This document shows positions 16,753 through 50,932 of a DNA stretch of 53,201 nt, piece after piece. The position numbers and the translations under genes were made by a program. The first letter of the stretch is position 1. Each line of letters begins with the position of its first letter. The notes under the pieces are model-generated. The model saw nothing but the letters and a program-made list of their open reading frames with translations, searched no databases and was not told the DNA's origin. Source of the stretch: an uncultured Bacteroidota bacterium (GTDB taxonomy: Bacteria; Bacteroidota; Bacteroidia; Bacteroidales; P3); NCBI GenBank assembly GCA_902791695.1, contig CADAWR010000016.1, forward strand, positions 1 to 53,201, written 5' to 3'.

Positions 16753-17232
16753 ATATATATGACGGAGAAAGTGTCAAAAACGATCAAAATTTAACTCTTT
16801 TTAATAAATTTCTTCTACACCTTCCTCTTTATTACTTCCAGTCCGACCTTCGCAAAAAATTCACTGCACACTATATATAAACCCCAAAAATCGAAAAAAA
16901 GGCTCACGGAGGGTGTGTTATTAACAAACCTTAACATTCCGGCCGGATTACTCGAGGATATAGGTGCGCCGGTGGCGCTATGCCGCCCCTCCGTACCCGC
17001 TCCGTACCCGCTCCGACTGTTCACCGGTTGTTTAACGGTTTTGGGACGGAGGTAAGACGGAGGTAAGACGGAGGGAGGACGGAGGTGAGGCGGAGGTGGG
17101 ACGGAGGTGAGACGGAGGTGAGACGGAGGTGAGACGGAGGTGGGACGGAGGTGAGACGGAGGTACTACGGACCCAGGACGGAGGTAGGACGGAGCGGATG
17201 GGGTGTGGCCGTGTGGTCGGGGGAATAAAAAA
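16753..17232. other. Intergenic region containing an 11-bp repeat array
   Basis: No gene is seen. From 16753 to 16980 the DNA is AT-rich with TTAACAAACCTTAAC at 16921-16935, a near match to the motif in the terminator cassettes. From 16982 to 17200 it is the phased array described separately. Open frames crossing the array on the minus strand encode only PPSHLRPTSV-type repeats and are not considered genes. Confidence 0.7.
16982..17200. repeat. 11-bp-period repeat element A (asymmetric, expanded)
   Basis: The left arm has units TCCGTACCCGC (twice), TCCGACTGTTC and ACCGGTTGTTT. The centre is AACGGTTTTGGG, without the TTTAAA core of the other copies. The right arm is an expanded run of about 14 units of 11 bases (ACGGAGGTAAG, ACGGAGGTGAG, ACGGAGGTGGG and variants). 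The unit and period match elements B-E. Confidence 0.9.
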
Positions 17233-17256
17233 AGAGACGTTCTTGGAAACGTCTCT
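17233..17256 (-). terminator. Rho-independent terminator of tRNA-Arg
   Basis: AGAGACGTT at 17233-17241 pairs with AACGTCTCT at 17248-17256, a 9-bp stem with loop CTTGGA. On the minus strand it is followed by a run of six or seven Us. It lies ten bases beyond the tRNA 3' end. Related palindromes occur inside two genes (37141-37162 and 49277-49300). Confidence 0.85.
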
Positions 17257-17266
17257 GTCGTTTTTG

Positions 17267-17340
17267 TGACTCCTGCAGGATTCAAACCTGCAACCTTCTG
17301 ATCCGTAGTCAGATGCTCTATTCAGTTGAGCTAAGGAGCC
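17267..17340 (-). tRNA. tRNA-Arg (anticodon ACG)
   Basis: A 74-base cloverleaf. The acceptor arm is GGCTCCT with AGGAGTC (one G-T pair) and discriminator A; the D arm contains TTAGCTCA. The anticodon stem TCTGA/TCAGA encloses the loop CTACGGA (anticodon ACG, whose A34 is normally deaminated to inosine by TadA). The T arm is GCAGG-TTTGAAT-CCTGC. No CCA is encoded. A promoter lies at 17380-17411 and a terminator directly follows, so it is a single-gene unit. Confidence 0.95.
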
Positions 17341-17379
17341 ATCTGGTTTTTCAAGGTCTCTCTTTCTTGAAAGCGGGTG

Positions 17380-17411
17380 CAAAAGTACTAACTTTTTAGA
17401 TACTGACCAAA
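17380..17411 (-). promoter_or_regulatory. Promoter of tRNA-Arg
   Basis: The minus strand reads TTTG at 17408-17411, a 20-base spacer, then TACTTTTG (17380-17387), matching the Bacteroidetes consensus. The predicted start, near 17374, is about 34 bases ahead of the mature tRNA 5' end. Confidence 0.75.
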
Positions 17412-17420
17412 CTTTTTTTT

Positions 17421-17455
17421 AGTTTTTAGTTCGGAGTTAGGGGTTATGAGTTGTA
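17421..17455. repeat. 7-bp tandem array (five units)
   Basis: Consecutive heptamers AGTTTTT, AGTTCGG, AGTTAGG, GGTTATG, AGTTGTA share the frame RGTTNNN. It lies between the GNAT gene end and the tRNA promoter. It is degenerate but in phase throughout; three other 7-bp arrays occur in the window. Confidence 0.55.
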
Positions 17456-17504
17456 TGTCAGTTTGTTGGAGTGGTAAAAAATTTCACCTTGCACCGTCCA
17501 ATTA

Positions 17505-18056
17505 TCACTTTACACCGTATACTTCGTGGTATAAGAGGTCGCGAATTTCGCAAAATTCGTCGTCGTCGAGTTCGTATTTCGACATCAAAATCATGGGCAC
17601 TGTGCGGCCGTCGTTGTGGTAGGAGGGCTGCTCGTAGGGTTGGGGGTTCTGGAAGAAGCCCATGGAGGCGTAGAACTCGAGCCGGTGGTCGGCTTCCTCG
17701 GTGTTGGGCAGTTCTATCTCTAGCACTACCTGTTCCTGCTGCTGCGAGAGGAAGTTGAGGAAGACGGCTTTGCCGAGTCCCTGGTTGCGGAGCTCTTCGT
17801 CGATGGCGAAATGCTCGACGTAGACGAGGTCTTCGAAGGTCCAGTAGGTGAGTATGCCTACCGGTTCGTCGCCGTTGGTGGCCACAAGGAAATGGAATTT
17901 GCCGGCATTTTTGTGGGTGGTTGTCGACTCAGTCGCCGCCATCCGCTGCCGGATGGTAGAGAAGGGGGGGCGTTCCTGCTCGGGGAACGCCTCTTCGAAG
18001 AGGTTTTGTGCAAAGTGCGGATGGTCGCTTTCTGCAAGGTTTGTGAGTGTAATCAT
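17505..18056 (-). CDS. GNAT-family N-acetyltransferase
   Basis: A 183-residue protein of the GNAT fold. The acetyl-CoA pyrophosphate loop is RNQGLGKAVFLNFL (about residues 90-103), preceded by the strand VYVEHFAIDEEL, and followed by the typical YASMGFFQNPQPYEQPSY segment of motif B. It transfers an acetyl group from acetyl-CoA to an unknown amine. It is the last gene of the run sigma factor, beta-barrel protein, acetyltransferase, two bases after the barrel gene, so it is likely co-transcribed. Confidence 0.87.
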   Translation of the reverse strand: MITLTNLAESDHPHFAQNLFEEAFPEQERPPFSTIRQRMAATESTTTHKNAGKFHFLVATNGDEPVGILTYWTFEDLVYVEHFAIDEELRNQGLGKAVFLNFLSQQQEQVVLEIELPNTEEADHRLEFYASMGFFQNPQPYEQPSYHNDGRTVPMILMSKYELDDDEFCEIRDLLYHEVYGVK

Positions 18057-18058
18057 CG

Positions 18059-22794: not shown

Positions 22795-23621
22795 AATATA
22801 TTGAAGTAACCTTTTCGATGGACGACACCGGTGTGTTTCGCGACATGCTGGTGGACACCTTGGGCAACGAAGGCCCGTACGAGAGCTTCGTGGAGACCCC
22901 CGACGGTCTGAAAGCCTATGTGCAGAAGGAGAAGTACGACCCACACTATCTGGCCGTTGTGGCCGAGACTTTTCCCCTGCCGCTGAAGTACAAGGCCGAG
23001 GAAATGGAGGACAAGGACTGGAACGCAGAGTGGGAGAAAGAGCACAAGGCTGTCCTCGTGCAGTACGACGGCGGCAGCGTCTGGGTGCGTGCACCATTCC
23101 ACCCACACCGTACCGACGTTGACTATGAGCTCATCATTGAGCCCAAAATGAGCTTCGGCACCGCCCATCACCCCACCACCTACATGATGCTCAGCTATGT
23201 GGCCGAGCTCGACATGAAGGATAAACGGGTTCTCGATATGGGCTGCGGCACCGCCGTGCTGGGCATACTGGCCAAGATGCGCGGTGCGGCATACGTCGAG
23301 GGTATCGACATCGACGAGTGGGCCTTCAGCAATGCCCGCGAGAACGCTGCCTCCAACGGCGTTGAGCTTACATTCAAGCTCGGTGGTGCAACCGCCATAC
23401 AGGGCTCTTTCGACGTCATTCTGGCTAATATCAACCGTAACATACTCCTTGCCGACATGGGGCGCTACGCTGCCGCCCTCAACCCTGGCGGTACACTGCT
23501 GCTCAGTGGTTTCTACGAGGCCGACGAAGGGGCGCTCATAGCCAAGGCCAACGAACTGGGTATGGTGCTCAAGGACAAGAAAAACCGCGACGGCTGGTCG
23601 TCGCTCCGACTGGTGAAATGA
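22791..23621 (+). CDS. prmA: Ribosomal protein L11 methyltransferase
   Basis: A 276-residue class I SAM methyltransferase that methylates ribosomal protein L11. The N-terminal substrate-recognition domain (about residues 1-90) includes MEDKDWNAEWEKEHKAVLV. The SAM site is KRVLDMGCGTAVLGILAKMRGA followed by GIDIDEWAFSNARENAASNGV, and the catalytic-loop signature is FDVILANINRNILL. FGTAHHPTTYMML corresponds to the conserved FGTGxHxTT motif with Ala in place of Gly. It overlaps truA and topB by four bases at each end, so translation is probably coupled. Confidence 0.95.
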   Translation: MKYIEVTFSMDDTGVFRDMLVDTLGNEGPYESFVETPDGLKAYVQKEKYDPHYLAVVAETFPLPLKYKAEEMEDKDWNAEWEKEHKAVLVQYDGGSVWVRAPFHPHRTDVDYELIIEPKMSFGTAHHPTTYMMLSYVAELDMKDKRVLDMGCGTAVLGILAKMRGAAYVEGIDIDEWAFSNARENAASNGVELTFKLGGATAIQGSFDVILANINRNILLADMGRYAAALNPGGTLLLSGFYEADEGALIAKANELGMVLKDKKNRDGWSSLRLVK

Positions 23622-25423
23622 TAGTCTGTATCGCTGAGAAGCCAAGTGTGGCGCGCGAGATTGCCAAGGTGCTGGGTGCCAACACCTCGCACGAGGGCTA
23701 CATGGAGGGCAACGGCTACCAGGTGACGTGGACCTACGGTCACCTCTGCACCCTCAAGGAGCCGCAGGACTACTGTGACCAGTGGCGCCGCTGGTCGTTG
23801 TCGGCGCTACCCATGGTGCCGCCGCGTTTCGGCATCAAGCTCATCGAAAACGACGGCTACAAGAAGCAGTTTGCTGTCATCGAGCGCCTTATGCAGGCCG
23901 CCGACGGTATCGTCAACTGCGGCGATGCCGGCCAGGAGGGCGAGCTCATCCAGCGCTGGGTGATGCAGAAAGCCAAAGCCACCTGCCCCGTGCAGCGCCT
24001 GTGGGTCAGCAGCCTCACCGAGGAGGCTATCCGTGAGGCATTTGCCAACCTCAAGCCGCAGTCGGAATACCAGAGCCTCTACGAAGCGGGCCTCTGTCGC
24101 GCCATAGGCGACTGGCTGCTCGGCATGAACGCCACGCGTCTCTACACCCTCCGTTTTGCCACTGCCAAGGGGCAGGTGCTCAGCATCGGCCGCGTGCAGA
24201 CCCCGACGCTGGCCATGATTGTCAAGCGCCACTTCGAGATAACCAACTTCAAACCAGAGAAATACTGGGTGCTCACCACCCTCTACCGCGGTGCCACCTT
24301 CTCCTCCACCAAGGGCAAGATAAAGAAGCCCGATGAGGGTCAGGCGGCACTTGATGCCGTCAAGGGCAAGGACTTCACGGTCACCGACATACAGCAGAAA
24401 GCCGGCACCGAGGCGCCGCCGCGCCTGTTCGACCTCACCTCGCTGCAGGTGGAGTGCAACAAGAAGTACTCCTTCTCGGCCGACGACACGCTGAAGCACA
24501 TACAGAGCCTCTACGAGAAGAAGCTCACCACCTACCCCCGTGTTGACACCACCTTCCTCAGCGACGACGTCTATGCCAAGTGTCCGCAGATACTGCAGGG
24601 CATTGTGCCCTATGCGCCGCTCATACAGCCCCTTATGGGCAAGAAGCTAAAGAAGAGCAAGAAGGTCTTCGACACCTCGAAGGTCACCGACCACCACGCC
24701 ATCATACCCACCGGCATGAACCCCCAGAACGTCAGTCTGACGACCGACGAGAAGCGCGTCTACGACCTCGTGGCACGCCGTTTCATAGCCGTCTTCTACC
24801 CCGACTGCAAGTTCAGCACCACCACCGTGATGGGGGAAGTGGAGGCATTGGAATTCAAGGCTACCGGCAAGCAGATACTCGACCAGGGCTGGCGCGCCGT
24901 CTTCGGTGGTCAGGGCACCACCGCCGACGATGAGAGCAAGAAGGAAGACGACGAGCAGGTGCTGCCCAATTTCGAGAAAGGCGAGCACGGCCCCCACGAG
25001 CCGAGCCTCACGGAAAAGCAGACCACGCCCCCCAAGCCGTACACCGAGGCCACCCTCTTGCGCGCCATGGAGACCGCGGGCAAGACTGTCGACAACGAGG
25101 AGCTGCGCGACGCCCTCAAAGCCAACGGCATCGGCCGCCCGTCGACACGCGCCGCCATCATCGAGACCCTCTACAAGCGCCAGTATATCCGCAAGGTGCG
25201 CAAGAGCCTCGAACCCACGCCCACCGGCATAGCCCTCATCGGCGTCATCAACGAAGAGCTCCTCAAGAGCGCCGAGCTCACCGGCCAATGGGAGAAGAAG
25301 CTGCGCGACATAGAGGCGCACAAGTACTCCGCGGCGCAGTTCATCGACGAGCTCAAGCAGATGACCGCCCAGGTGGTGCAGGAGGTGATGAGCGACGGCT
25401 CGCGCCGCATGCAGCTGCAATAG
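23618..25423 (+). CDS. topB: DNA topoisomerase III (type IA)
   Basis: A 601-residue type IA topoisomerase that relaxes and decatenates DNA through a 5'-phosphotyrosine link. The Toprim domain opens MIVCIAEKPSVAREIAKVLG (Glu7) and contains NCGDAGQEGEL (Asp103, Glu107), where the usual DxDxE reads D-A-G-Q-E. The catalytic Tyr306 lies in TTYPRVDT; later motifs are KVTDHHAIIPTG, ATLLRAME and GIGRPSTRAAIIE. No C-terminal zinc fingers are present. Its position behind truA and prmA argues for a housekeeping gene and not a mobile-element topoisomerase. It is the last gene of the operon. Confidence 0.93.
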   Translation: MIVCIAEKPSVAREIAKVLGANTSHEGYMEGNGYQVTWTYGHLCTLKEPQDYCDQWRRWSLSALPMVPPRFGIKLIENDGYKKQFAVIERLMQAADGIVNCGDAGQEGELIQRWVMQKAKATCPVQRLWVSSLTEEAIREAFANLKPQSEYQSLYEAGLCRAIGDWLLGMNATRLYTLRFATAKGQVLSIGRVQTPTLAMIVKRHFEITNFKPEKYWVLTTLYRGATFSSTKGKIKKPDEGQAALDAVKGKDFTVTDIQQKAGTEAPPRLFDLTSLQVECNKKYSFSADDTLKHIQSLYEKKLTTYPRVDTTFLSDDVYAKCPQILQGIVPYAPLIQPLMGKKLKKSKKVFDTSKVTDHHAIIPTGMNPQNVSLTTDEKRVYDLVARRFIAVFYPDCKFSTTTVMGEVEALEFKATGKQILDQGWRAVFGGQGTTADDESKKEDDEQVLPNFEKGEHGPHEPSLTEKQTTPPKPYTEATLLRAMETAGKTVDNEELRDALKANGIGRPSTRAAIIETLYKRQYIRKVRKSLEPTPTGIALIGVINEELLKSAELTGQWEKKLRDIEAHKYSAAQFIDELKQMTAQVVQEVMSDGSRRMQLQ

Positions 25424-25474: not shown

Positions 25475-25613
25475 CTCTGTATCCGCTCCGTATCCGCTCC
25501 GACTCTGCTCCGTCTGTTCTCCGGTTGTTCTACGACTGTTCTACGGTTTAAACCGTTAAACAACCGGTGAACAACCGTAGAACAGACGGAGCGGATACGG
25601 AGAGGGGGCGGGG
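25475..25613. repeat. 11-bp-period inverted repeat element B
   Basis: Left-arm 11-mers: TCCGTATCCGC (25487-25497), TCCGACTCTGC, TCCGTCTGTTC, TCCGGTTGTTC, TACGACTGTTC. The centre is ACGGTTTAAACCGT (25543-25556). The right arm mirrors it: GAACAACCGTA (25569-25579), GAACAGACGGA, GCGGATACGGA, then GAGGGGGCG. The whole could fold as one hairpin of more than 50 pairs with mismatches. Confidence 0.93.
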
Positions 25614-33988: not shown

Positions 33989-34245
33989 CCCGATAGTCGT
34001 TTTAGTTGCTATTAGTTTTTATTATTGTGTATAATAACGCTTGTCGCCCATCTTTATTGTGCACCTCGCCAAAAAAAGCATCTTGCCCCGTCGCCCCTCC
34101 GTACCCGCTCCGTCTGTTCACCGGTTGTTCACCGGTTGTTCTACGATTTAAACCGTTAAACAACCGGTGAACAACCGTAGAACAGTTGGAGAAGAGACGG
34201 AGCGGGTGCGGAGTGGATATGTAGAGGCGATATGCAAATATTTTT
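33989..34245. other. Divergent intergenic region with repeat element C
   Basis: No gene is seen. It contains AT-rich sequence (33989-34080), where the promoter of the heptose operon should be although no consensus box is visible, and element C (34089-34216). The serC promoter follows at 34246. Confidence 0.6.
34089..34216. repeat. 11-bp-period inverted repeat element C
   Basis: Left arm: TCCGTACCCGC, TCCGTCTGTTC, ACCGGTTGTTC, ACCGGTTGTTC. Centre: ACGATTTAAACCGT with TTTAAA at 34147-34152. Right arm: GAACAACCGTA, GAACAGTTGGA, GAAGAGACGGA, GCGGGTGCGGA. It lies between divergent operons, upstream of the serC promoter. Confidence 0.93.
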
Positions 34246-34276
34246 TTTGCCATGTCATTTTTATTTGTTATCTTTG
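34246..34276 (+). promoter_or_regulatory. Promoter of the serC operon
   Basis: TTTG at 34246-34249, exactly 19 bases, and TATCTTTG at 34269-34276. Predicted start near 34283, leaving a leader of about 60 bases before the serC ATG at 34346. Confidence 0.82.
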
Positions 34277-37912: not shown

Positions 37913-37951
37913 ACTGTAGTATTATGTGGCCGTCGTGCGACTATTATACAG

Positions 37952-38446
37952 ATGACGGCAAAAGAGTATAACAGGTGTGTGGACCAATGCGCCGACGACG
38001 TGATGCGCTTCGCGGTGCGTTGCGGCTGCCGACGCGAGGATTGTGAGGATGCTGTGCAGGAGGCACTGGCTTCGTTGTGGAAGCACCGGGAGAGTGTCGA
38101 TGTCGCTAAAGGCAAGAGTTATTTGCTGAGTGCCGCTTACCGTCGCCTGATGTCGCATTTCCGTCATGATGCAGTGGTGCATGAATATGCCGAGAAAATG
38201 GTGACGCAGGTGACACAGATGCCTGATGAAAGCTTTGATTTGAATGATGCCATTGAGCGAAGCATGCAGACGCTGCCCGAGGTGCAGCGCGCCATACTGC
38301 AACTGCGCGACGTGGAGGGCTACAGCTACGCCGAGATAGGGGAGACCCTGTCGCTGAGCGACAAGCAGGTGCAGGTATACCTGTTCCGTGCCAGGGTGGC
38401 AATGCGTAAACAATTGAAAACAATGGGTTATGGTAATGATAGATGA
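37952..38446 (+). CDS. ECF RNA polymerase sigma factor
   Basis: A 164-residue sigma factor. Region 2 is CEDAVQEALASLWKHRE, then SYLLSAAYRRLMSHFRHD (about residues 31-73). Region 4 is LPEVQRAILQLRDVEGYSYAEIGETLSLSDKQVQVYLFRARVAMRKQL (about 107-155). The next gene, overlapping it by 17 bases, is a single-pass membrane protein in the position of an anti-sigma factor, followed by an outer-membrane protein, so this is a probable envelope-signalling cassette. Gap to mntP is 39 bases with no clear promoter box. Confidence 0.92.
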   Translation: MTAKEYNRCVDQCADDVMRFAVRCGCRREDCEDAVQEALASLWKHRESVDVAKGKSYLLSAAYRRLMSHFRHDAVVHEYAEKMVTQVTQMPDESFDLNDAIERSMQTLPEVQRAILQLRDVEGYSYAEIGETLSLSDKQVQVYLFRARVAMRKQLKTMGYGNDR

Positions 38447-39149: not shown

Positions 39150-39171
39150 TAACAATAATAATTATACTGCT

Positions 39172-40467: not shown

Positions 40468-40468
40468 G

Positions 40469-41815: not shown

Positions 41816-42039
41816 AATTGTATATTGTTATCGTGTATCCTCTTTTTCAGGTCTGCCACGCGGGCGGTTATCTGCGCCACCTGCATCTCTATGAAATCCT
41901 CGCTGTATTTGCGGTCGCAGAAACCGTTGCCGCGTGCCACGAAGGCGTCGTCCTCCTCCTGCTCCACAGCCAGGTCCTGATAGCTCTGCAGCAGCTTCTG
42001 TGCGGCTTCGAGCTCTTCTGCAAGTGTCATTGTCTTCAT
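41812..42039 (-). CDS. Small hypothetical protein
   Basis: A 75-residue, mostly helical, soluble protein (LAEELEAAQKLLQSYQDLAVEQEEDDAFVARG, then SEDFIEMQVAQITARVADLKKRIHDNN). No family is recognised. It overlaps the HAD gene upstream and the symporter gene downstream by four bases each, which strongly supports it being translated. A helical-hairpin or coiled-coil fold is probable. Confidence 0.75.
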   Translation of the reverse strand: MKTMTLAEELEAAQKLLQSYQDLAVEQEEDDAFVARGNGFCDRKYSEDFIEMQVAQITARVADLKKRIHDNNIQL

Positions 42040-42803
42040 GCAAACAGTTTGTTTATAGCGTTTTCAATCCCCTCGTTGTCGACATCCGTAGTCACCATGT
42101 CGGCCGCTGCCTTTACCTCGTCGGCTGCGTTGCCCATGGCCACGCCGGTGCCTGCCCACTGCAGCATCTCGATGTCGTTGCCGCCGTCGCCAAAAGCCAG
42201 CGTCTCCTCCTGGCGAAAGCCGTAGTGGCGGCAAATGGCCTCCATGCCGGCGGCCTTGCTGTTGCCCTGTGCCACGATGTCCGTAAAGGCCGGATGCCAG
42301 CGCGGCAGGCGGCAGTGCGACAGCGTGGCGCCCACCTGCCCGTCGAGCTCGGGGGGCATGATGGCTATGAGCTGGTAGGCCTCGTGGCCTCGCATCTCGT
42401 CGATGTCGACCACCGGAGGCATCTGGAACTCCAGCTGCTCGCGGATCTTGAGGCCTATGGGGTTGACTTGTGCCACCATCATCGATGTGGCGGTGAACAC
42501 CATGGTGCAGAGTCGGTGCTCCTTGGCGAAGTCGAGCCAGCGCTCGCTGTCCTCGCGCGGGATGGGGTTGCTGAGCAACACCTCGTTCTCCGCTGTGAAG
42601 ACGAGGCCGCCGTTCATGGTGATATACGCGTCGAAACTGACGGGCATCTCGGGTATGAGTATCATGGGGCGGCCGCTTGAGATGAAGGTGCGGACACCGT
42701 GTGCGTGCAGTGTGCTGAAGGCGCGGACGGTTCCCTCCGAGACGCGGTGCGTCTTGAAGCTGAGCAGTGTGCCGTCTATGTCGAAGAATGCCGCTTTTAT
42801 CAT
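42036..42803 (-). CDS. Cof-type HAD-IIB phosphatase
   Basis: A 255-residue HAD hydrolase with motif I FFDIDGTLLSF (Asp8, Asp10), motif II ISSGRP, the type IIB cap in the middle (about residues 80-180), the motif III lysine in NSKAAGMEAICRHYGF and motif IV FGDGGNDIEMLQWAG. Such enzymes hydrolyse sugar phosphates or pyridoxal/flavin phosphates; the substrate is unknown. It is first in a three-gene operon with the small protein and the symporter. Confidence 0.9.
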   Translation of the reverse strand: MIKAAFFDIDGTLLSFKTHRVSEGTVRAFSTLHAHGVRTFISSGRPMILIPEMPVSFDAYITMNGGLVFTAENEVLLSNPIPREDSERWLDFAKEHRLCTMVFTATSMMVAQVNPIGLKIREQLEFQMPPVVDIDEMRGHEAYQLIAIMPPELDGQVGATLSHCRLPRWHPAFTDIVAQGNSKAAGMEAICRHYGFRQEETLAFGDGGNDIEMLQWAGTGVAMGNAADEVKAAADMVTTDVDNEGIENAINKLFA

Positions 42804-42852
42804 TGTTCTTTTATATCTATTCGCTATCTAGTCGCTTCGCCGGTGAGCCGAT

Positions 42853-42968
42853 GCCGCTCCGTACCCGCTCCGTCTGTTCTACGGTTGTTCACCGGTTGTT
42901 CGACGGTTTAAACCGGTAAACAACCGGTGAACAGACGGTGAACAGACGGAGAGAGTACGGAGAAGGGT
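42853..42968. repeat. 11-bp-period inverted repeat element D
   Basis: Left arm: TCCGTACCCGC, TCCGTCTGTTC, TACGGTTGTTC, ACCGGTTGTTC. Centre: ACGGTTTAAACCGG (TTTAAA 42907-42912). Right arm: GAACAGACGGT, GAACAGACGGA, GAGAGTACGGA, GAAGGG. It ends three bases from the stop codon of the purine nucleoside phosphorylase gene and so lies directly at the 3' end of that operon. Confidence 0.93.
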
Positions 42969-42971
42969 CGG

Positions 42972-43793
42972 TCATATTGCTTTTATCATTTGTTCTATGA
43001 GTGCTGTCATGCGGGCGGCGGCGTTGTCGGCCTGACGGACTACGTCGTCGGCGTCGTTGACGGTTCCGTCTTTGAGGTCATTGCTTTGGTTGGTAATGAC
43101 GCTGATGCCGAAGACTTCGAGGCCTGAGTGGCGGGCGACGATGACTTCGGGGACTGTGGACATGCCGCATGCGTCGCCACCGATGGTGCGGTAGAAGCGA
43201 TACTCGGCCGGCGTTTCGTAGGAGGGGCCTGTGCCTGCCACATAGACGCCGGGTTGCAGGGCGATGCCGAGGTTGGCGGCACAGCTGTCGGCGAGTGCGC
43301 GGAGGCGTGGGCTGTAGGTGTCGGTCATGTCGGGGAAGCGGGGGCCGAAGTCGTCGAGGTTGGGTCCGACGAGCGGGTTGGGCATGAAGTTGATGTGGTC
43401 GGTGATGACCATGAGGTCGCCGACGCGGTAGTCGGGGTTTACGGCGCCGGCGGCGTTGCTGACGATGAGGGTGCGGATGCCGAGGGTGGCGAAGACGCGT
43501 ACGGGGAAGGTTACTTCCTGCATGGTGTAGCCTTCGTAGTAGTGGAAGCGGCCCTGCATGGCGAGTATGGGTTTGCCGCCGAGGGTGCCGACGATGAGGT
43601 TGCCCTTGTGGCCCACGGCGGTGGAGGTCTTGAAGTGTGGTATGTCGGAGTAAGGGATTACGAGCGGGTTGGCGATGAGGTCGCCGAGCTTGCCGAGTCC
43701 GCTGCCGAGGATGACGGCGGTGGTGGGCGTTGCCATTGCGGCGTCGGCGATGCGACGCGCGATGTATTGTGCTGTTTCGGTGTAGCTATTCAT
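42972..43793 (-). CDS. Purine nucleoside phosphorylase
   Basis: A 273-residue trimeric-type PNP (class II). It splits inosine or guanosine with phosphate into base and ribose 1-phosphate. Motifs: VILGSGLGKLGDLI, the phosphate and base site stretches QGRFHYYEGYTMQEVTFPVRV, VSNAAGAVNPDYRVGDLMVITDHINFM, GPSYETPAEYRFYRTIGGDACGMSTVPEVIVARH, and FGISVITNQSNDL. The Glu and Asn of the purine site are at YETPAE and TNQSND. It is last in a ten-gene run and starts eight bases inside the preceding gene. Confidence 0.93.
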   Translation of the reverse strand: MNSYTETAQYIARRIADAAMATPTTAVILGSGLGKLGDLIANPLVIPYSDIPHFKTSTAVGHKGNLIVGTLGGKPILAMQGRFHYYEGYTMQEVTFPVRVFATLGIRTLIVSNAAGAVNPDYRVGDLMVITDHINFMPNPLVGPNLDDFGPRFPDMTDTYSPRLRALADSCAANLGIALQPGVYVAGTGPSYETPAEYRFYRTIGGDACGMSTVPEVIVARHSGLEVFGISVITNQSNDLKDGTVNDADDVVRQADNAAARMTALIEQMIKAI

Positions 43794-44319
43794 GTCTCAG
43801 TTTTTCTATCTGTTGCTGTATCTCGGCGGCGCGCTCATATTCTTCGTTCTCCTCGCAGCGAAGCAGTTCGCGCTCGAGGCTCTCGATGGTTGGTGTCTCG
43901 GGCACTTTCTGTGCGGGAGTGGCGGCGGTGCCGCATTCGTCGAGGACGCTGTCGGCCACAAAGAGGGGTGCGTTGCAGAGGAGTGCAAGGGTGACGGCGT
44001 CGGTGGTGCGGCTGTCGATGTCCTTGGGGTTGAAGCCGTCGGTGGTGTGGAGTGTGGCGTAGAAGATGCCGTCGGCCACGCGGTCGATGGTGGCGCTGAC
44101 AAGTGAGATGCCGTAGTTGGCCATGAGGTCGGCCATGAGGCGGTGGGTCATAGGTCTGCCGGTGGGCACCATGCCTTTGGCTATCAGGATGCCGTGGGCC
44201 TCGTGCTCACCAATTACTATAGGTATCCGGCGGCCGCTGAGGGGCTCTTCGAGCATGAGGATGTAGCTGCCGGTGCGCGAGGGACCGCCCTCGATGGATA
44301 TGGGGTAGACCTGCTTCAT
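43786..44319 (-). CDS. Bifunctional-nuclease (DUF151) domain protein with UVR motif
   Basis: A 177-residue protein. Residues of about 8-125 are a BFN/DUF151 domain (LEEPLSGRRIPIVIGEHEAHGILIA, RPMTHRLMADLMANYGISL, DSRTTDAVTLALLCNAPLFV). Residues of about 145-175 form a UvrB/UvrC-type helical hairpin (LERELLRCEENEEYERAAEIQQQIEKL). This two-domain form is common in Bacteroidota; nuclease activity has been reported for some plant homologues but the bacterial role is unclear. It overlaps rdgB by four bases and PNP by eight. Confidence 0.88.
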   Translation of the reverse strand: MKQVYPISIEGGPSRTGSYILMLEEPLSGRRIPIVIGEHEAHGILIAKGMVPTGRPMTHRLMADLMANYGISLVSATIDRVADGIFYATLHTTDGFNPKDIDSRTTDAVTLALLCNAPLFVADSVLDECGTAATPAQKVPETPTIESLERELLRCEENEEYERAAEIQQQIEKLRHE

Positions 44320-44891
44320 TTAAGGTGGGCTGCGAGTTTGGCGACGGCGAGGCCGCGGTGGCTTATGGTGTTCTTGACGTCGAGCGGCATTTCGGCGAAG
44401 CTGAGGGCGAAGCGGTCGGGCATGAAGACGGGGTCGTAGCCGAAGCCCTCACCGTTGCTGTGCCTCTCCGTGAGTATTTGTCCGTCGACGCGGCCCTCGA
44501 AATACTTGGGTTCACCGCCCTCGATAAGGCAGATGACGGTGCGGAAGTCTGCGCTACGGTTGCTTTTACCCTCAAGTGCTGCGAGAAGCTTGTCGATGTT
44601 GTCGTCGAAGGAGCAGTGCTCGCCGGCATAGCGGGCGGAGTAGACGCCTGGTGCGCCGCCGAGGGCGTCGACCTCGAGGCCTGTGTCGTCGGCGAAGCAG
44701 TCGGTGTGGGTTCTGTCCCAGACCCACTGTGCTTTCTGGAGGGCGTTGCCCTGCAGTGTGTCGGCCGTCTCCGGGATTTCGCCAGAGAGACCGGCTTCGG
44801 CGAGGGTGACAATCTCAACGATGCCGTCGAGGGCGGCTCGCACCTCCTCCACTTTGTGCTTGTTGTTGGTTGCGAATATTAGTCTTTTCAT
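44316..44891 (-). CDS. rdgB: XTP/dITP diphosphatase (RdgB/HAM1)
   Basis: A 191-residue house-cleaning pyrophosphatase that hydrolyses dITP and XTP to the monophosphate. The opening FATNNKHKVEEVRAAL, then GNALQKAQ, FADDTGLEVDALGGAPGVYSARYAG (catalytic Asp), GEGFGYDPVFMPD, and SHRGLAVAKL are diagnostic. It lies three bases after the porin gene. With PNP two genes on, it links this part of the operon to purine handling. Confidence 0.95.
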   Translation of the reverse strand: MKRLIFATNNKHKVEEVRAALDGIVEIVTLAEAGLSGEIPETADTLQGNALQKAQWVWDRTHTDCFADDTGLEVDALGGAPGVYSARYAGEHCSFDDNIDKLLAALEGKSNRSADFRTVICLIEGGEPKYFEGRVDGQILTERHSNGEGFGYDPVFMPDRFALSFAEMPLDVKNTISHRGLAVAKLAAHLK

Positions 44892-44894
44892 ATG

Positions 44895-46823
44895 TTAGTC
44901 AAAGAAATTCCATGTTAAACCATAGAAGATGCCAAAGCCCTGTCCGGGGTAGTGGGGGAGGGAGAAGTACTTGCGCTCCTCCTCCCAGAGGGCGTTGATG
45001 TGACCAGCTTTGACGTAGAACTCGGCGCGCTTGAGCTGGAAGTTGAGGAATACATCGCCCCAGAGATAGCCGCCCACCTTAGCGTCGCGCTGGTGATAGA
45101 AGAGTCCGGTGTAAGGGTCGTAGTTGGGGGAGAAGAACAGTGAGTGGTAGCGGATATCAACACCTATCTGAGCCCGTAGTACGCCTTTGATGAGCACTAT
45201 GTCGGTGTAGATAGAGTTCTTGGTGGCCAGCTGTGGTACCGGCATTTGTGTGGTGTCGGTGCTGTGCTGGATAAGGTGCTGCATGTCGATGTGGAACCAG
45301 CCCCACTGCAGATGGGTGGTGAGGCGGGCCTGGTAGAGCCAGAAGGGGGTAGTGCCCTCGACGGCCTTGAGGGTGGTGTCGAACCAGGTGTTGTGGTTGT
45401 AGTGTGTGGCCTGAACGGCGATGTCCACAACATCTTTGTAGTGGAAGCGAGTGCCGACGAATGAGGTGACCACAGGGGAGAGGTCCTGATTGTAATGCAG
45501 CAGGCGCAAGTCGGGGGTGCGGGCGGTGCGGACAGCCTTGATTTCGGCAACGGCGTTGCGGGCGCTATCGAAGGGATAGGCGAGTGTTGCAGTGAAGCGT
45601 GAGTCGGGCGTACCGTGGCTGTTGAACGACTTGCGTGATTCGGCTTCGCCGATGATGCTACCCCTGCCTAGTGCCACTTCGACGCGGGCGAAGGGGTCGA
45701 GCCACGAGCGTAGGCTGTTGCTGTCGCCCTCGATGTCGACGAATATGTAGCGCGGCTGAAGGCCGAGAGTGAGCTTGATGGGGTTGCGCCAACGGTGGTC
45801 AGGATACACGTCGTTGGTCCAGAAGAGACGTGCGCTGTATTCGCGCCACATGGTGGAGTCGACGGCCACACGTTTGCGGCGGTCGTACATGAGCTCCAAG
45901 CCGAAAGTGCCGGCGTTGAGGGAGTGCGGTTTGTGTGCCGGTATGGTGTCGGTGACAATGATGGTGTCGTAGGTTACGGTGCTGTCGGCGTTCACAATGA
46001 CTGCAATGCTGTCGCGGTCGCGGTAGCGCTCGAACTGCGGTACGAGGCTGTAGCTGACGCTGCCCATAAGGGCGAGGTCGTTGTGGCGGGTCTGCAGGTC
46101 GTAGATATACACCGGCATACCGGCGTAATTGGTGCTGTAGTTACCGGTGAAGTAGCCGTCGTCGGTGATGCCGCCGGTCTCGTTGTTGCGGATGGAGTTC
46201 CAGATGACGGCACCCTTTGCCTGCAGGCGTGAGTCGCGCGAGAAGTAGTTGGTGGTGGCGTCGAGGAAATGGTCTTTGGCATAGAGCGACGAGTTGTCGC
46301 CTTCGGGGCGCACCAGCTTGTAGTCGAACGACACATTCCAACCCGGCATGATGTTCTGCGTATGTGCGGCGCGTAGTACGTAGTCTTTTTTGAGAGTGTT
46401 GTTGTAAGAGAGCACGGAGTAGGGTGTGCGTGTCTGGTAGAAGCGCACGTTGTGCAGGCGTTTGGCGTAGCAAGGGAAGCGGTCGGTGATGAGCCGCAGT
46501 CCGAGGGGCTCCGTGGCATCGCTGAAGAGAGCCAGATGCGGGTGTCCCATGGTGCCTACACTGAGGTAGTAGTTGCCGTTGAGCTCGTCTTGCGAGTCAT
46601 AGAATTGTACGCCTGTAGGCGAAAGCTGCGGCAGGTACATCTCGAATATTTTCGTCTGCGCCGGACTGTAATAGAAGTAGCGTACTTTGCTCTGCTTCAC
46701 GCTGTCGGGCTCCTCCTTGTGGTACTCCAGGCCGCGCACCGGGTTGCTACCGGCGGTGTCGGCCTGAGCCGATACATACTGCAGGGTGGCAAAAGCAAGT
46801 ATTATGAGCAGCAGGCGCCTCAA
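44895..46823 (-). CDS. Putative porin (Porin_10 family)
   Basis: A 642-residue outer-membrane protein. The signal peptide (RRLLLIILAFATLQYVSAQA) is followed by a long barrel with many aromatic strands (MYLPQLSPTGVQFYDSQDELNGNYYLSVG, WRNPIKLTLGLQPRYIFVDIEG, YLWGDVFLNFQLKRAEFYVKAGHI) and a terminal GIFYGLTWNFFD. This agrees with Bacteroidota putative porins of about 650 residues. I start at a TTG (46821-46823), four bases after the trxB stop and exactly at the signal peptide; a GTG at 46877 would prepend 18 residues from within trxB. The transported solute is unknown. Confidence 0.8.
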   Translation of the reverse strand: MRRLLLIILAFATLQYVSAQADTAGSNPVRGLEYHKEEPDSVKQSKVRYFYYSPAQTKIFEMYLPQLSPTGVQFYDSQDELNGNYYLSVGTMGHPHLALFSDATEPLGLRLITDRFPCYAKRLHNVRFYQTRTPYSVLSYNNTLKKDYVLRAAHTQNIMPGWNVSFDYKLVRPEGDNSSLYAKDHFLDATTNYFSRDSRLQAKGAVIWNSIRNNETGGITDDGYFTGNYSTNYAGMPVYIYDLQTRHNDLALMGSVSYSLVPQFERYRDRDSIAVIVNADSTVTYDTIIVTDTIPAHKPHSLNAGTFGLELMYDRRKRVAVDSTMWREYSARLFWTNDVYPDHRWRNPIKLTLGLQPRYIFVDIEGDSNSLRSWLDPFARVEVALGRGSIIGEAESRKSFNSHGTPDSRFTATLAYPFDSARNAVAEIKAVRTARTPDLRLLHYNQDLSPVVTSFVGTRFHYKDVVDIAVQATHYNHNTWFDTTLKAVEGTTPFWLYQARLTTHLQWGWFHIDMQHLIQHSTDTTQMPVPQLATKNSIYTDIVLIKGVLRAQIGVDIRYHSLFFSPNYDPYTGLFYHQRDAKVGGYLWGDVFLNFQLKRAEFYVKAGHINALWEEERKYFSLPHYPGQGFGIFYGLTWNFFD

Positions 46824-46827
46824 AGTA

Positions 46828-47757
46828 TCAGTTCTCCTGGAGGAAACGTTCAACGTCCATGGCTGCGCGGCATCCACCGGCGGCGGCCATCACGGCTTGG
46901 CGGTAGTTGGGGTCGCACACGTCGCCGGCGGCGAAGACTCCAGCCACGCTGGTGGCCGAAGTGGGGTGCTGTATCTCTATGTAGCCCTGCTCGTTGAGCT
47001 TGAGCTGTCCGCGCAGGAAGTCGGTGGCGGGCTTGTGACCTATGGCCACAAAGACGCCGGTGACCTCTTTTTGGCACTTCTCGCCGGTTTTGGTGTCGGT
47101 GAGCTCCACGCCAGTAACGCCGTCGAGCGGCGTGCCCAGTATCTCGCTCACGCGGCTGTTCCAGCACATCTCAATCTTGGGGTTGGTGAGCACGCGGTGC
47201 TGCATGGCCTTCGAGGCGCGTAGCTCGTCGCGGCGGTGCACCAGATACACTTTGGCGCAGAGGGTGCTGAGGTAGTTGGCCTCTTCGCAGGCGGTATCGC
47301 CGCCGCCCACCACCGCCACGGTCTGTCCCTTGTAGAAGGGGCCGTCGCAGGTGGCGCAGGCCGACACGCCCTCGCCATAGTATTTCTGCTCGCTCTCCAA
47401 GCCTATCCAGCGTGCTGTGGCGCCGGTGGCCACTATCACCGTCTCGGCCTCCACCTCGTTGCCGTGGTCGTCCTTGGCCACGAAGGGGCGCTTGCTGAGG
47501 TCTATGTCACGTATGTAGCCCGTGCGCACGTCGCAGCCGAAGCGCATGGCCTGACGGCGCAGGTCATCCATCATCTCGGTGCCGCCGATGCCCTCGGGGT
47601 AGCCGGGGAAGTTCTCAATCTCGGTGGTGATGGTCAGCTGTCCGCCCGGCTGCTCGCCCTCAAAGAGTATGGGCTTCAGGTCGGCGCGGCCTGTGTATAT
47701 GCCGGCGGTGTAGCCCGCCGGACCGGAACCAATTATCAAACAACGTGTCTTTTCCAT
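46828..47757 (-). CDS. trxB: Thioredoxin-disulfide reductase
   Basis: A 309-residue FAD/NADPH enzyme that reduces thioredoxin. The FAD site is LIIGSGPAGYTAGIYTGRA, the redox pair is Cys134-Ala-Thr-Cys137 in VSACATCDGP, the NADPH motif is VVGGGDTACEEANYL, and the second FAD segment is VFAAGDVCDPNYRQAVMAAAGGCRAA. Length is normal. It starts one base after the flippase-like gene. Confidence 0.97.
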   Translation of the reverse strand: MEKTRCLIIGSGPAGYTAGIYTGRADLKPILFEGEQPGGQLTITTEIENFPGYPEGIGGTEMMDDLRRQAMRFGCDVRTGYIRDIDLSKRPFVAKDDHGNEVEAETVIVATGATARWIGLESEQKYYGEGVSACATCDGPFYKGQTVAVVGGGDTACEEANYLSTLCAKVYLVHRRDELRASKAMQHRVLTNPKIEMCWNSRVSEILGTPLDGVTGVELTDTKTGEKCQKEVTGVFVAIGHKPATDFLRGQLKLNEQGYIEIQHPTSATSVAGVFAAGDVCDPNYRQAVMAAAGGCRAAMDVERFLQEN

Positions 47758-47758
47758 A

Positions 47759-48772
47759 TTATTTTCTTTTTTTCATTATGCTAAAGTAAATCAAATATGC
47801 GGCGCCTACGGCAATAACCACGGCCTGCTGTGAGCCCCACAGGAGCCATCCGCAAGCGGTGCCCACCTCCATCGAGATGCCGTATATGTCCAGTGCCAGC
47901 TGCACCAGCACGGGGTACACCCCTATGCCGCCCTGTGAGAAGGTCATTCCCACACTGCCGAACAGGTAGACCACGAAGGCCGCTCTCATGCCGAGCCATC
48001 CCGTTTCAGGGAATGCCTGGAAGATTATCAGCCCACCTAGGATATATAGCGTATAGATGGCCACACTGTAGGCCACAAACAGCGCTGTGTCGCGCCAGCC
48101 GAGGTGCAGTATGCTCTTCACACCGTCCACCATGCCGCGCACCAGGTCGTCGATCTTCTTGAACAGGGCTATGTGCAGCAGCTTCTTCCAGAAGAACTTG
48201 TAGAACAGCAACGCCAGTATGGCCAGCATTGCCAACGCGCCGACAATCATGGCCATATTGGGCAGATTGTCGAAGCGGGTCGAGAGGGTGTCGTAGAGCC
48301 AGTCCTTGGCCTTGCCGAACATGACCACCATGCCCAGCAGCACCACCAGCGCGAAGGCCAGCATGTCTATCAGGCGCTCCGTGACCACGGTGCCCAGCGA
48401 CTTCTCCATCGGTATGCCTTCGCTGGTGCGCAACGTGGCGCAGCGCATCACCTCGCCCGCCCGCGGGAAAGCCAGGTTGCCCAGGTAGGCCACCATCACC
48501 GAGCCGAAGGTGTGGTTCAGCGTCGGCACATGCCCCATGGGCTTGAACAGCAGGCGCCAGCGCAGTGCACGCACTATGTGGCTCAGCAGGCTGCAGGCCA
48601 TCGCCGCCGCCACCCACCAGTAGTTGGCTCCGGTGAACGACTCCCAGATGGCCGCCTTCTGGCTCGCGTCAAGCTTCAGCAAGAACCAGTAGATGAAGAA
48701 GAAGCCTATGCCGAGGAACACTACTAGCCTAAGCACACCGCCCATCGTCACCCCTTTGCGCTCCTCGCTCAT
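47759..48772 (-). CDS. Flippase-like / lysylphosphatidylglycerol synthase TM-region family protein
   Basis: A 337-residue polytopic inner-membrane protein of the UPF0104/AglD group (LPG synthase TM region). Seven to eight spans are visible. Family motifs include [53 protein letters not shown] and the glycine-rich [17 protein letters not shown]. Members are thought to move lipids or glycolipids across the membrane; the substrate is unknown. The ATG at 48770-48772 overlaps panD by four bases. Confidence 0.87.
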
Positions 48773-49110
48773 ACACGGTTGTTTTTCGGGAATATCACTG
48801 TCGGGTGCCATTTGGCAGCCTCCTCGGGCGTCATCTGTGCGTAGGCGGCAATGATTATCAGGTCGCCCACGCGGGCCTTGTGGGCCGCAGCACCGTTGAT
48901 GCCAATCACGCCCGTGCCGCGCTCGCCGCGGATGGCGTAGGTCGCAAAGCGCTCGCCGTTAGTGATGTTGTATATTTCCACCTTCTGGTTCTCAATGATG
49001 CCTGAGGCCTCAAGCAACTCCTCGTCGATGGTGATGGAGCCTATGTAGTCCAGGTCGGCTTCCGTCACCGTCACGCGGTGGATCTTCGATTTCAGTACTT
49101 CTATAAACAT
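48769..49110 (-). CDS. panD: Aspartate 1-decarboxylase
   Basis: A 113-residue pyruvoyl enzyme making beta-alanine for pantothenate and CoA. The self-cleavage site is Gly24-Ser25 in [10 protein letters not shown]; Tyr58-type and Thr57-type residues are in [29 protein letters not shown]. The position of the cleavage site matches the canonical numbering, so the start is secure. No panB or panC lies nearby. Confidence 0.95.
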
Positions 49111-49113
49111 CTT

Positions 49114-49641
49114 TCAAAATAATATCCAATACAATAGCATGCACACCAGCAGCGCATACAGCATGATGCGGCCTGCCGGTATGGGTTTCATGTAGTCGGG
49201 GTCCGTCACGTCGAAGCGCCGCTTTATTTTAACGCCGCGCTTCTTGAACTCCGCAATGTGCTCGCCGGTGCCCTGTAGAGACGTTTCATGAAACGTCTCT
49301 TCCGAATTTGTCTCTGCGGCGGAGAAGCGCGGCTGGTAGTTGAACTTGGGCATCTCCCTCTTGCGGAACATGTCCTTCCACGTCAACCCCTTGTGCTTCT
49401 CCTTGCGGTCCAGTTCGCGCACACGCCGCTGGAAATAGGCCAGATCTTTGTCGTCGCTCTCTTCCGCTCTTCTACTTTTCCACTCTTCCACTTTTCCACT
49501 CTCCGACTCTGCCCGCAGTTCTTCCAGCGCCTTCTCGTCGGCATACTTCTGCTTCAGCGCCTCCCAGCGCTCCTTCTCGGGGTCGTAGAAGCGCGGCTGG
49601 TAGTGGAACTGGCGCGGCTTGGGTGTATAAAACATCGGCAT
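49114..49641 (-). CDS. Hypothetical tail-anchored membrane protein carrying repeat insertions
   Basis: A 175-residue charged protein with a C-terminal membrane span (PAGRIMLYALLVCMLLYWILF). It has two copies of an F-x-Y-Q-P-R-F motif: FHYQPRFYDPEKERWEALKQ near residue 12 and FNYQPRF near residue 100. I recall proteins with this motif as a common Bacteroidales hypothetical family without known function. Two stretches look inserted: residues near 45-60 come from a 48-base run of 8-bp repeats (49461-49508), and TFHETSL near 115-122 from a perfect 24-base palindrome (49277-49300). It lies between panD and the folate gene with gaps of three and six bases. Confidence 0.75.
   Translation of the reverse strand: MPMFYTPKPRQFHYQPRFYDPEKERWEALKQKYADEKALEELRAESESGKVEEWKSRRAEESDDKDLAYFQRRVRELDRKEKHKGLTWKDMFRKREMPKFNYQPRFSAAETNSEETFHETSLQGTGEHIAEFKKRGVKIKRRFDVTDPDYMKPIPAGRIMLYALLVCMLLYWILF
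49277..49300. repeat. Perfect 24-bp palindrome inside a gene
   Basis: AGAGACGTTTCA is followed by its exact reverse complement TGAAACGTCTCT. It lies in frame in the hypothetical gene at 49114-49641. Related copies: 17233-17256 (tRNA terminator) and 37141-37162 (inside the ATP-grasp-like gene). Confidence 0.85.
49461..49508. repeat. 8-bp tandem array (six units) inside a gene
   Basis: Units on the plus strand are CTTCCGCT, CTTCTACT, TTTCCACT, CTTCCACT, TTTCCACT, CTCCGACT. Forty-eight bases equals 16 codons, so the frame is kept. Minus-strand translation gives SGKVEEWKSRRAEE-type residues. Confidence 0.85.
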
Positions 49642-49647
49642 CTCTGG

Positions 49648-50187
49648 TCAGTTTTCGGTTATTACGCGGTTCATTTTTACGTCATGCGGCTCAACGGGTA
49701 TGGTGTCCAGCATCTGGAAGTCGTAGGCCACGCCCACCTTCACGGCATTCGGCGTGCTCTTCAGCAGGCGGTCGTAGAAGCCGCGCCCGCGGCCCATACG
49801 GTTGTTCTGCTTGTCGAAAGCCACGCCCGGCACCACGATGAGCTCCACTGCGCCGAGGTCTTTCCACTCCTCGCCCGTCGGTTCACCGATGCCGAACTGC
49901 TCGCCGGCCACCATGCACTCTGGCCCTGTGTACTGGCGCAGCACCAGGTCGTCGCCGTCGACGCAGGGCAGCAGCAGGGTCTTCGCCCTGTACCACCGCT
50001 CCACGAAGGCGTGTGTCTGCACCTCGTCGGCCATCGACCAGTAGAGCAGCACCACACGGGCGCGCTGGAACTCCGGCAGATGCTCTACGCTGCGCATCAC
50101 GGTCTCGCTCCTGCGAAGCTTCTCCTCCGCAGTCACCGCACGCTTCAGCTCGCGCATCCGCCGCCTTATTTCCGTCTTGTCCACCAT
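49648..50187 (-). CDS. 5-formyltetrahydrofolate cyclo-ligase
   Basis: A 179-residue enzyme that uses ATP to turn 5-formyl-THF into 5,10-methenyl-THF. The N-terminal basic helix KTEIRRRMRELKRAVTAEEKLRRSE, the central VVLLYWSMADEVQTHAFVERW, VVPGVAFDKQNNRMGRGRGFYDRLL (nucleotide/folate loop) and VGVAYDFQM identify the family. Size is typical. The genes to either side are separated by six and 45 bases. Confidence 0.93.
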   Translation of the reverse strand: MVDKTEIRRRMRELKRAVTAEEKLRRSETVMRSVEHLPEFQRARVVLLYWSMADEVQTHAFVERWYRAKTLLLPCVDGDDLVLRQYTGPECMVAGEQFGIGEPTGEEWKDLGAVELIVVPGVAFDKQNNRMGRGRGFYDRLLKSTPNAVKVGVAYDFQMLDTIPVEPHDVKMNRVITEN

Positions 50188-50203
50188 GTCTTGTCTCTAA
50201 GAA

Positions 50204-50231
50204 CGTAACCCGTAACCAGTAATCCGTAACC
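50204..50231. repeat. 7-bp tandem array (four units)
   Basis: CGTAACC, CGTAACC, AGTAATC, CGTAACC fill most of the 45-base gap between the DUF3127 gene and the folate gene. The same heptamer type occurs at 19566. Confidence 0.8.
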
Positions 50232-50232
50232 T

Positions 50233-50670
50233 TTAGAAGGGCAGGTCGTCCTCGCCGTTCTGCGGCATCGCCGGGGGCTGTGCGAAAGCCTGGGCAGGCT
50301 GGGCTGCTGCCGGAGCTGCCTGTGCGGGCTGCGCGGGAGCGGTGCCAGTGGCGGGGTTCCAGTTGTAGTTGCCGGTGGCGGCAGCGGGCATCTGGCCCGG
50401 CACGAAAGGCTGTACGCGCGAGCAGCGAAGGTCCGTGTACCACTTCTCGTTGAACTCGCGGCTCTCAGGGGTGAAGGTCACCTGCACCATCGTGCCCATC
50501 GGCACATTCTTAACCATAGCCACGCGCTCCTCGCCGAAAGCCGTGAAAGCCACCTTGCGCGGATAGTCCTCGCCGGTCTCAATAACAAAGCCGCCGCGCA
50601 CCCACGGGCCGCGGGCCGATTCGCCCTGCACTTCGGGCAAAAGTTGGATTAACTTACCTGTGATTTCCAT
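50233..50670 (-). CDS. DUF3127 domain protein with SSB-like acidic tail
   Basis: A 145-residue protein. Residues 1-95 are a DUF3127 domain, an OB-fold-like small barrel (MEITGKLIQLLPEVQGESARGPWVRGGFVIETGEDYPRKVAFTAFGEER). An Ala/Pro/Gln-rich linker (about 97-135) leads to an acidic tail ending EDDLPF. This is the plan of a single-stranded DNA-binding protein, whose DDIPF-type tail recruits repair and replication proteins. DNA binding is inferred, not shown. It is first in the ten-gene run, has its own promoter, and is divergent from dnaB. Confidence 0.85.
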   Translation of the reverse strand: MEITGKLIQLLPEVQGESARGPWVRGGFVIETGEDYPRKVAFTAFGEERVAMVKNVPMGTMVQVTFTPESREFNEKWYTDLRCSRVQPFVPGQMPAAATGNYNWNPATGTAPAQPAQAAPAAAQPAQAFAQPPAMPQNGEDDLPF

Positions 50671-50736
50671 TTTATTATATTATTTTAGTTAACAATCAAT
50701 AAATTATCGCATGTGATGCCACATGTTTCAAACATA

Positions 50737-50767
50737 CAAAAATAGCACTTTTTCCCAATACGGCAAA
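50737..50767 (-). promoter_or_regulatory. Promoter of the DUF3127-to-PNP operon
   Basis: The minus strand reads TTTG (50764-50767), a 19-base spacer, and TATTTTTG (50737-50744), a full consensus match. Predicted start near 50731, with a leader of about 60 bases. Confidence 0.78.
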
Positions 50768-50793
50768 ATAATTTTATTAACAAGGTATATAAC

Positions 50794-50932
50794 CTCTCCG
50801 TCGCCCCTCCGTACCCCCTCCGTACCCGCTCCGACTGTTCTACGGTTGTTCACCGGTTGTTTACCGGTTTAAACCGTCGAACAATCGGTGAACAACCGGT
50901 TAACAGTCGGAGAAGATACGGAGAGGGGTCGC
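50794..50932. repeat. 11-bp-period inverted repeat element E
   Basis: Left arm: TCCGTCGCCCC, TCCGTACCCCC, TCCGTACCCGC, TCCGACTGTTC, TACGGTTGTTC, ACCGGTTGTTT. Centre: ACCGGTTTAAACCG (TTTAAA 50868-50873). Right arm: GAACAATCGGT, GAACAACCGGT, TAACAGTCGGA, GAAGATACGGA, GAGGGGTCG. The outer ends CGCCCCTCC and GGAGAGGGG are also inverted. Confidence 0.93.

Follow-up and report, generated by a model that had tools for sequence, protein, structure and literature searches.

Intergenic arrays of 11-bp units upstream of promoters in an uncultured Bacteroidales bacterium and its relatives

Results

We analysed a stretch of 53,201 nucleotides from an uncultured Bacteroidales bacterium (contig CADAWR010000016.1 of assembly GCA_902791695.1; hereafter the window), which contains five intergenic elements built from units of 11 base pairs (bp). 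A preceding sequence-only reading had described these elements as a family of inverted arrays, and all five were found at the coordinates it had given. Four of them are mirrored around a TTTAAA centre, as had been claimed: outer TCCGTACCCGC-like units are followed by units of the TCCGTCTGTTC, TACGGTTGTTC and ACCGGTTGTTC type, then by a GGTTTAAACC-like centre and the same series in reverse. The remaining copy is a one-sided subtype. None of the elements carries a strand assignment. The motif CGnnTGTT occurs 36 times in the window when both strands are counted, and 25 of these occurrences fall within the five elements, which make up 741 of the 53,201 bp.

The one-sided array (16982..17200) has CGnnTGTT units in forward orientation at 17014 and 17025 and a long ACGGAGGTGAG-like run with an 11-bp step on its right side, and is adjoined by a tRNA-Arg gene on the minus strand (17266-17340). 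The mirrored array at 25475..25613, with cores at 25511, 25522 and 25533 on the plus strand and at 25559, 25570 and 25581 on the minus strand, lies between the plus-strand genes 23618-25423 and 25714-27786. A divergent gap is occupied by the mirrored array at 34089..34216, with plus-strand cores at 34111, 34122 and 34133 and minus-strand cores at 34159 and 34170. Downstream of it, a -7 promoter box, TATCTTTG, is found on the plus strand at 34269..34276 and belongs to the gene 34346-35461. The mirrored array at 42853..42968 is placed between the minus-strand genes 42036-42803 and 42972-43793 and lies directly behind the stop codon of the upstream gene. The last array, also mirrored, lies at 50794..50932 in the gap from which a DUF3127 gene and dnaB diverge. 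On the dnaB side, the -7 box TAATTTTG follows on the plus strand at 50972..50979, upstream of dnaB; on the other side, the DUF3127 gene has two overlapping candidate -7 boxes on the minus strand at 50729..50744, TATTTTTG at 50737-50744 and TATGTTTG at 50729-50736. The ten flanking genes that were searched with Pfam are ordinary ones, among them a topoisomerase, a CoA-ligase/ATP-grasp protein, a glycosyltransferase, a class V aminotransferase, a nucleoside phosphorylase and DnaB.

The size of the family was determined in the host genome, G000, which comprises 2.17 Mb in 37 contigs. A two-unit pattern matched exactly 144 times and its reversed control not once, so the elements are not a few copies without a conserved phase. 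A sequence model of 124 columns gave at least 150 matches on both strands, and the matches listed correspond to at least 77 distinct places with a full palindrome. For the profile search 758 kb of G000 were read, and genes were called with a simple caller of our own and no standard program. The profile search found 48 copies, of which 47 were placed between genes and one had no flanking gene pair. These 47 copies consist of 33 full palindromes and 14 lower-scoring copies, which are mostly one-sided and include one with a different word, as we call the sequence of the repeated unit. The related genome G106 had 49 copies in 764 kb; in a third genome, G029, 7 of 55 elements were left unplaced.

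The strict step of 11 bp was borne out by the alignment of 23 full copies, which needed no internal gaps and only end gaps, of 11. An exception in the number of units is the copy C2:11279, which misses one whole unit on one arm. Within the unit, CG and TGTT are kept in the 33 full copies and the remaining five positions vary. The one-sided copies showed no clear preference in their orientation to the genes when inspected by eye. Two contigs of G000 start about 160 bp before an element (C3:159-280 and C9:159-280); the elements could break the assembly and may hence be under-counted.

The placement of the arrays was compared among gaps between divergent, co-directional and convergent genes. In G000, 26 of 56 divergent gaps held an array, against 16 of 166 co-directional and 4 of 25 convergent ones; for G106 the figures were 28 of 56, 14 of 166 and 3 of 23, respectively. 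At an equal array-free length of 150-300 bp the numbers were 17/22 divergent against 5/38 co-directional gaps in G000 and 19/26 against 5/45 in G106, whereas the divergent bias was weaker at 300-1000 bp (P 0.006 and 0.09). In twelve other genomes of the genus taken together, gaps with an 11-bp period amounted to 15/57 divergent, 13/196 co-directional and 4/36 convergent ones. The corresponding counts in G029, where the loci had been chosen because they hold the word, were 20/36 divergent and 25/85 co-directional gaps. The intergenic placement can be stated more sharply than before: most arrays are found either in divergent gaps or a short way behind the stop codon of an upstream gene, and both places are upstream of promoters.

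The flanks between the array edge and the start codon were searched for TAnnTTTG, which is given as the -7 consensus of sigma-ABfr in the excerpted source (PMC7366714). The box was present in 95 of 130 flanks, with 9.3 expected from shuffles; this count pools G000 and G106, so that loci shared by the two enter twice. From the array edge to the start of the box the median distance is 57 bp (quartiles 41 and 77); the end of the box lies 43 bp ahead of the start codon. Among array-free upstream regions, 156 of 357 had such a box. Since the promoter consensus is nearly equal beside arrays and elsewhere, the flanks were not duplicated together with the arrays. The elements are promoter-upstream arrays.

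To measure the register between array and promoter, we took the distance that separates the -7 box from the conserved C in the array unit closest to it. Because plain Rayleigh tests are inflated by the clustering of the distances, a null was used in which a random jitter of up to 8 bp was added to each distance. Several periods were examined, with period 11 fixed beforehand by the array. At this period the distances were in phase in G000 (R=0.381, n=44, P=0.004), in G106 when only the loci not shared with G000 were taken (R=0.333, n=34, P=0.03) and in G029 (R=0.365, n=39, P=0.01), and the phase angle agreed across the three species (10.4, 10.1 and 0.0 of 11). When the three were pooled (n=117), R was 0.353 (P=1e-5) and the maximum among the periods 8-15 was found at 11.0. 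For a control, the start codons of the same flanks were tested and had no phase (P 0.92 in G000, 0.45 in G106 and 0.69 in G029). Six of eight decoy motifs were frequent enough to be tested, and five of these were not significant. These results support the geometry proposed earlier, in which one unit per helical turn puts the units on the same face of the DNA, and add that an 11-bp register links the array to the promoter as well. The period found is 11 bp, as in the array, and not 10.5 bp, as in free B-DNA, so that gains and losses of whole units may be part of what keeps the register.

Conservation was followed between G000 and G106. Of the conserved gaps compared, 14 were occupied in the two genomes alike and 66 in neither; one gap had an array in G106 alone, and none had one in G000 alone. 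In at least three of the shared gaps, either a full G000 array corresponds to a one-sided or weak one in G106, or both genomes have a one-sided array. For the comparison of bases 10 of the 14 shared pairs were used, and 4 were left out as one-sided or weak in one species. The core phases of the 10 orthologous pairs differed at 25 of 400 sites (6%) and the other five positions at 125 of 380 (33%), while the divergence at fourfold sites between the two genomes was 6,918 of 20,591 (33.6%). Six positions per unit are therefore held and five drift like neutral sites.

The dnaB region of the array at 50794..50932 was compared in 29 further genomes of the genus. In G106 this site carries the word of G000. 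In G008, G107, G118, G047 and G089, 11-bp arrays of other words were seen by eye directly upstream of dnaB, and the one in G118 appeared to consist of direct repeats only. A period scan, which covered the whole dnaB loci, detected a period-11 array in 11 of 29 loci of the genus (124 kb), in 0 of 27 loci of other genera of the family (117 kb) and in 0 of 29 loci of other families (126 kb). In the sample examined, period 11 is restricted to the genus. In stretches of 15 genomes of the genus, 11 was the commonest of the periods 5-20 in nine, with period-11 gaps for example at 6/17 in G107 and 7/35 in G012. No gap reached the threshold in G008, G016, G124 and G111, of which 15, 40, 79 and 40 kb were read; G124 had one period-11 gap at a looser threshold. 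In G047, two of the six period-11 rows were runs of N.

The arrays of G107, G012, G110, G009, G023 and G047 were read fully and are mostly mirrored and made of other words. Some of these genomes have two or more words, and some arrays mix words without loss of the step. When they are read towards the AT centre, many of the words look related by few substitutions. The elements are not one sequence family, since related species build their arrays from other 11-bp words. In the stretches read, 21 orthologous proteins of G000 and G023 have a median identity of 87%, yet the words of the two are different. By gene-pair orthology, three gaps had an array in G000 or G106 and also in a species with another word (G023, G009). 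Among seven closer species there was no case of a G000 or G106 array missing in the other species and one reverse case (G047), and in the distant G110 and G029 the presence of an array mostly differed from G000 and G106. A genome scan with the word of G000 and G029 gave, among the matches listed, bins of ruminant Bacteroidales such as RGIG5008 and RUG12227 as well as single matches in unrelated genomes.

Arrays with a foreign word were noticed by eye in both main genomes. The array at C2:145372-145538 of G000 has a TAGTTCTTCAG core, as in G023, inside outer units of the G000 type, and an array on contig C5 of G106, near 69338-69684, is similar to the G008 word. Arrays of 11-bp units were also seen on two viral contigs of IMG/VR (L400:12830-13080 and L399:1240-1470). 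A phage contig with terminase, portal and major head protein (by PHROGs) has two arrays upstream of structural genes on the minus strand, the first using the TAGTATTACGG word found in G012 and the other made of CATTCACTGAA-like units, and a second viral contig has a similar stretch. Direct 11-bp units of GTTGTTCGCCG were found at L345:430-580, with no mirrored arm in the part seen. Periods 7 and 14 were also raised in the intergenic DNA of G106, G056, G000, G098 and G012, for example in 12 gaps of G106 and 7 of G056.

Discussion

Because the constraint falls on fixed bases, the places are stable and the register with the promoter is found in three species, we interpret the arrays as binding sites for a fast-evolving, promoter-coupled factor that acts with RNA polymerase at the neighbouring promoter, and we give this interpretation a probability of about 0.5. 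Each 11 bp would hold one putative binding site, and a sequence-specific factor would read CGnnTGTT in each unit of G000. The mirrored arms would be two arrays placed back to back, giving each of the two divergent promoters the same arrangement in the same 11-bp register. After binding to the array, the factor would act on transcription, by activation, by insulation of the divergent promoters or perhaps by silencing, and the words would change as its specificity changes while the arrays are rewritten or copied. Within a genus, bacterial regulators in wide use usually have conserved operators. A wider proposal, which we make only tentatively, is that the whole genus shares a cis-regulatory system whose grammar is conserved (11-bp step, mirrored arms and fixed promoter register) and whose word is exchangeable, being rewritten by related species at many promoters. 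Possible readers of the arrays are a protein family that evolves fast, a factor guided by a nucleic acid with a mutating guide, and a direct recognition of homology between duplexes. For Neurospora, homology units at a periodicity of 11 or 12 bp are reported, as are contexts without an 11/12-bp preference, in the excerpted source (PMC4858203).

Several observations weigh against a binding array. The shortest gaps of G000 and G106 (60-150 bp) had no divergent bias, and convergent gaps carry arrays too (the 4 of 25 and 3 of 23 counted above). The convergent copies are conserved as well as the others, with 0 of 136 core sites deviating, and the model leaves these few and well-conserved copies unexplained. 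In the co-directional gaps, the promoter-near arm had no significant advantage in conservation over the far arm (2 vs 7 of 238). A recognisable -7 box was missing in 35 of the 130 flanks, and among the decoys the T6 tracts were also phased (R=0.377), for which the T-rich -33 side of the promoter is our explanation. At the variable positions, orthologous copies are barely closer to each other than non-orthologous ones (0.329 vs 0.366, P=0.025), and copying between loci may contribute to the uniformity. No binding protein was found in a check of the OmpR-type regulator and a comparison of the least similar orthologs. G000 has one match to PF00486 (OmpR-type), and its recognition helix, SMDVYITKLRKYLK, is identical in G000, G106, G012, G110, G124 and G111. 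As G012 and G110 use other words, the helix is constant while the words differ, and this response regulator was rejected as the reader, with one counterpart compared per relative. The least similar orthologous proteins of G000 and G106, taken from about one third of each genome, pointed to no fast-evolving binder, and the lowest pairs look like paralogues.

The arrays could instead work as RNA, by terminating transcription in both directions or as processing sites, and so insulate adjacent transcription units. A very long hairpin had been predicted from the sequence alone, and this part stood: for the four palindromic copies of the window, the folding energies of both strands lie between -75 and -84 kcal/mol, with z from -9.2 to -12.2. 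In addition, co-directional copies are often found just behind the stop codon of the upstream gene. That the pairing itself is kept was not supported. Covariation was tested in the 33 full copies against shuffled arms, and no distance from 1 to 59 from the centre was over-paired at P<0.01; compensatory pairing was rejected for want of this positive signal. The distances 8 and 9 from the centre even avoid pairing (3/33 and 2/33 copies, with 13.2 and 16.6 expected). In 31 of 33 copies the innermost units of the arms have different ends, GTTT and GTTC, and this fixed mismatch could prevent a perfect palindrome or mark polarity. The 12 terminator-like sites (GC-rich hairpin plus T run) in the region 34000-51100, where shuffles have 13.1, miss all three copies there, and an Rfam 15 search of the window at gathering thresholds gave nothing besides tRNA. 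Intrinsic terminators, judged on these three copies, and Rfam families, judged on the window, were rejected as the main explanation. The favoured divergent gaps are also those where no upstream gene reads through. We regard a function as RNA hairpins as improbable, and the long hairpin is probably a by-product. Pairing near the centre would have to be kept, too, if the palindromes formed DNA cruciforms that absorb the negative supercoiling expected between divergent promoters. The divergent bias and the AT-rich centre of the palindromes are in line with cruciforms, but the constraint falls on particular bases, and one-sided copies exist as well as the array of G118 without a mirrored arm. Cruciforms are highly improbable.

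Mobile DNA offers another explanation, in which the arrays are families of miniature elements like miniature inverted-repeat transposable elements and the 11-bp units are binding sites of a transposase. Such families would spread and disappear in turn, take each other's place at preferred sites in front of promoters and persist because they do little harm. This would account for the near-identical cores at three gaps in G107, the several words per genome and the arrays mixing words in phase, the nearly uniform units of G029, the weak ancestry signal at the variable positions and the copy present in G106 only. From a passenger, however, one would not expect a base-specific constraint at resident orthologous copies, stable positions across a divergence of 33.6% at fourfold sites, or a phase with the promoter. 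In a look for terminal inverted repeats and target-site duplications at the G106-only gap, no clean empty site was seen by eye, the two gaps (93 and 572 bp) being too different to show one. The Y1 transposase (PF01797) had no match in G000 and G029, where other transposase families were not searched, and had one match in 7 of the 14 genomes of the genus that were searched. For lack of PF01797 in G000 and G029, REP/RAYT was rejected as the main explanation. Mobile families explain the recent copying, the several words and the mixed arrays and leave the base-specific constraint, the stable positions and the phase unexplained, and we consider them rather unlikely as the nature of the arrays. They may be the route by which the words spread, and a combined history of arrays used by the host and words spread by copying is possible.

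The arrays were also compared with known systems. REP, ERIC and similar sequences are short imperfect palindromes dispersed between genes, many per genome, and in this they resemble the arrays; we know of no 11-bp unit array or promoter phasing in them. Streptomyces PhoP uses direct-repeat units. The SARPs of the OmpR family bind direct repeats that are 11 bp apart, according to the excerpted source (PMC4393881). Operators of the OmpR/PhoB type share with the arrays the 11-bp direct repeats of one helical turn, the position upstream of promoters and the conserved core with a variable spacer in each repeat, and direct repeats spaced by 11 bp upstream of promoters were found here, with period 11 in the units and a phase to the -7 box. 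OmpR/PhoB-type operators have two or few repeats and a limited regulon, whereas the present arrays have at least six mirrored units and are found at about half of the divergent gaps. Moreover, the word of the arrays changes between species and the OmpR-type recognition helix does not. By analogy, the arrays may work like the 11-bp direct repeats of the SARPs; a membership in the OmpR type is not supported.

The parallel to BrickBuilt of Porphyromonas gingivalis, which the sequence-only reading had drawn, is weak; it holds for the tandem intergenic units and fails for the unit length. BrickBuilt is likewise an intergenic repeat of tandem units in a Bacteroidales species, with predicted long stem-loops and positions largely kept between strains; it has 23-nt repeats, IS5-like terminal inverted repeats and 19 copies, and the excerpted description reports no 11-bp step, promoter phase or exchangeable word for it (PMC4596501). 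A search of the open-access literature found no description of arrays like the present ones, in agreement with the earlier reading, which knew of no such described Bacteroidales repeat. A conserved 11-bp grammar together with a promoter register and an exchangeable word matches none of the families tested.

If the reader were found, the arrays would be a natural experiment on how a recognition code is rewritten across a genome without breaking regulation. A new element of promoter control would then be known from uncultured rumen Bacteroidales, and long intergenic hairpins that are otherwise filed as repeats would have an explanation.

Other repeats in the window

Two short tandem repeats were observed in the window besides the arrays. 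One has a unit of 8 bp (CTCTTCCA) and lies at 49459-49510, and the other has a unit of 7 bp (AAAGGTG) and lies at 52529-52585.

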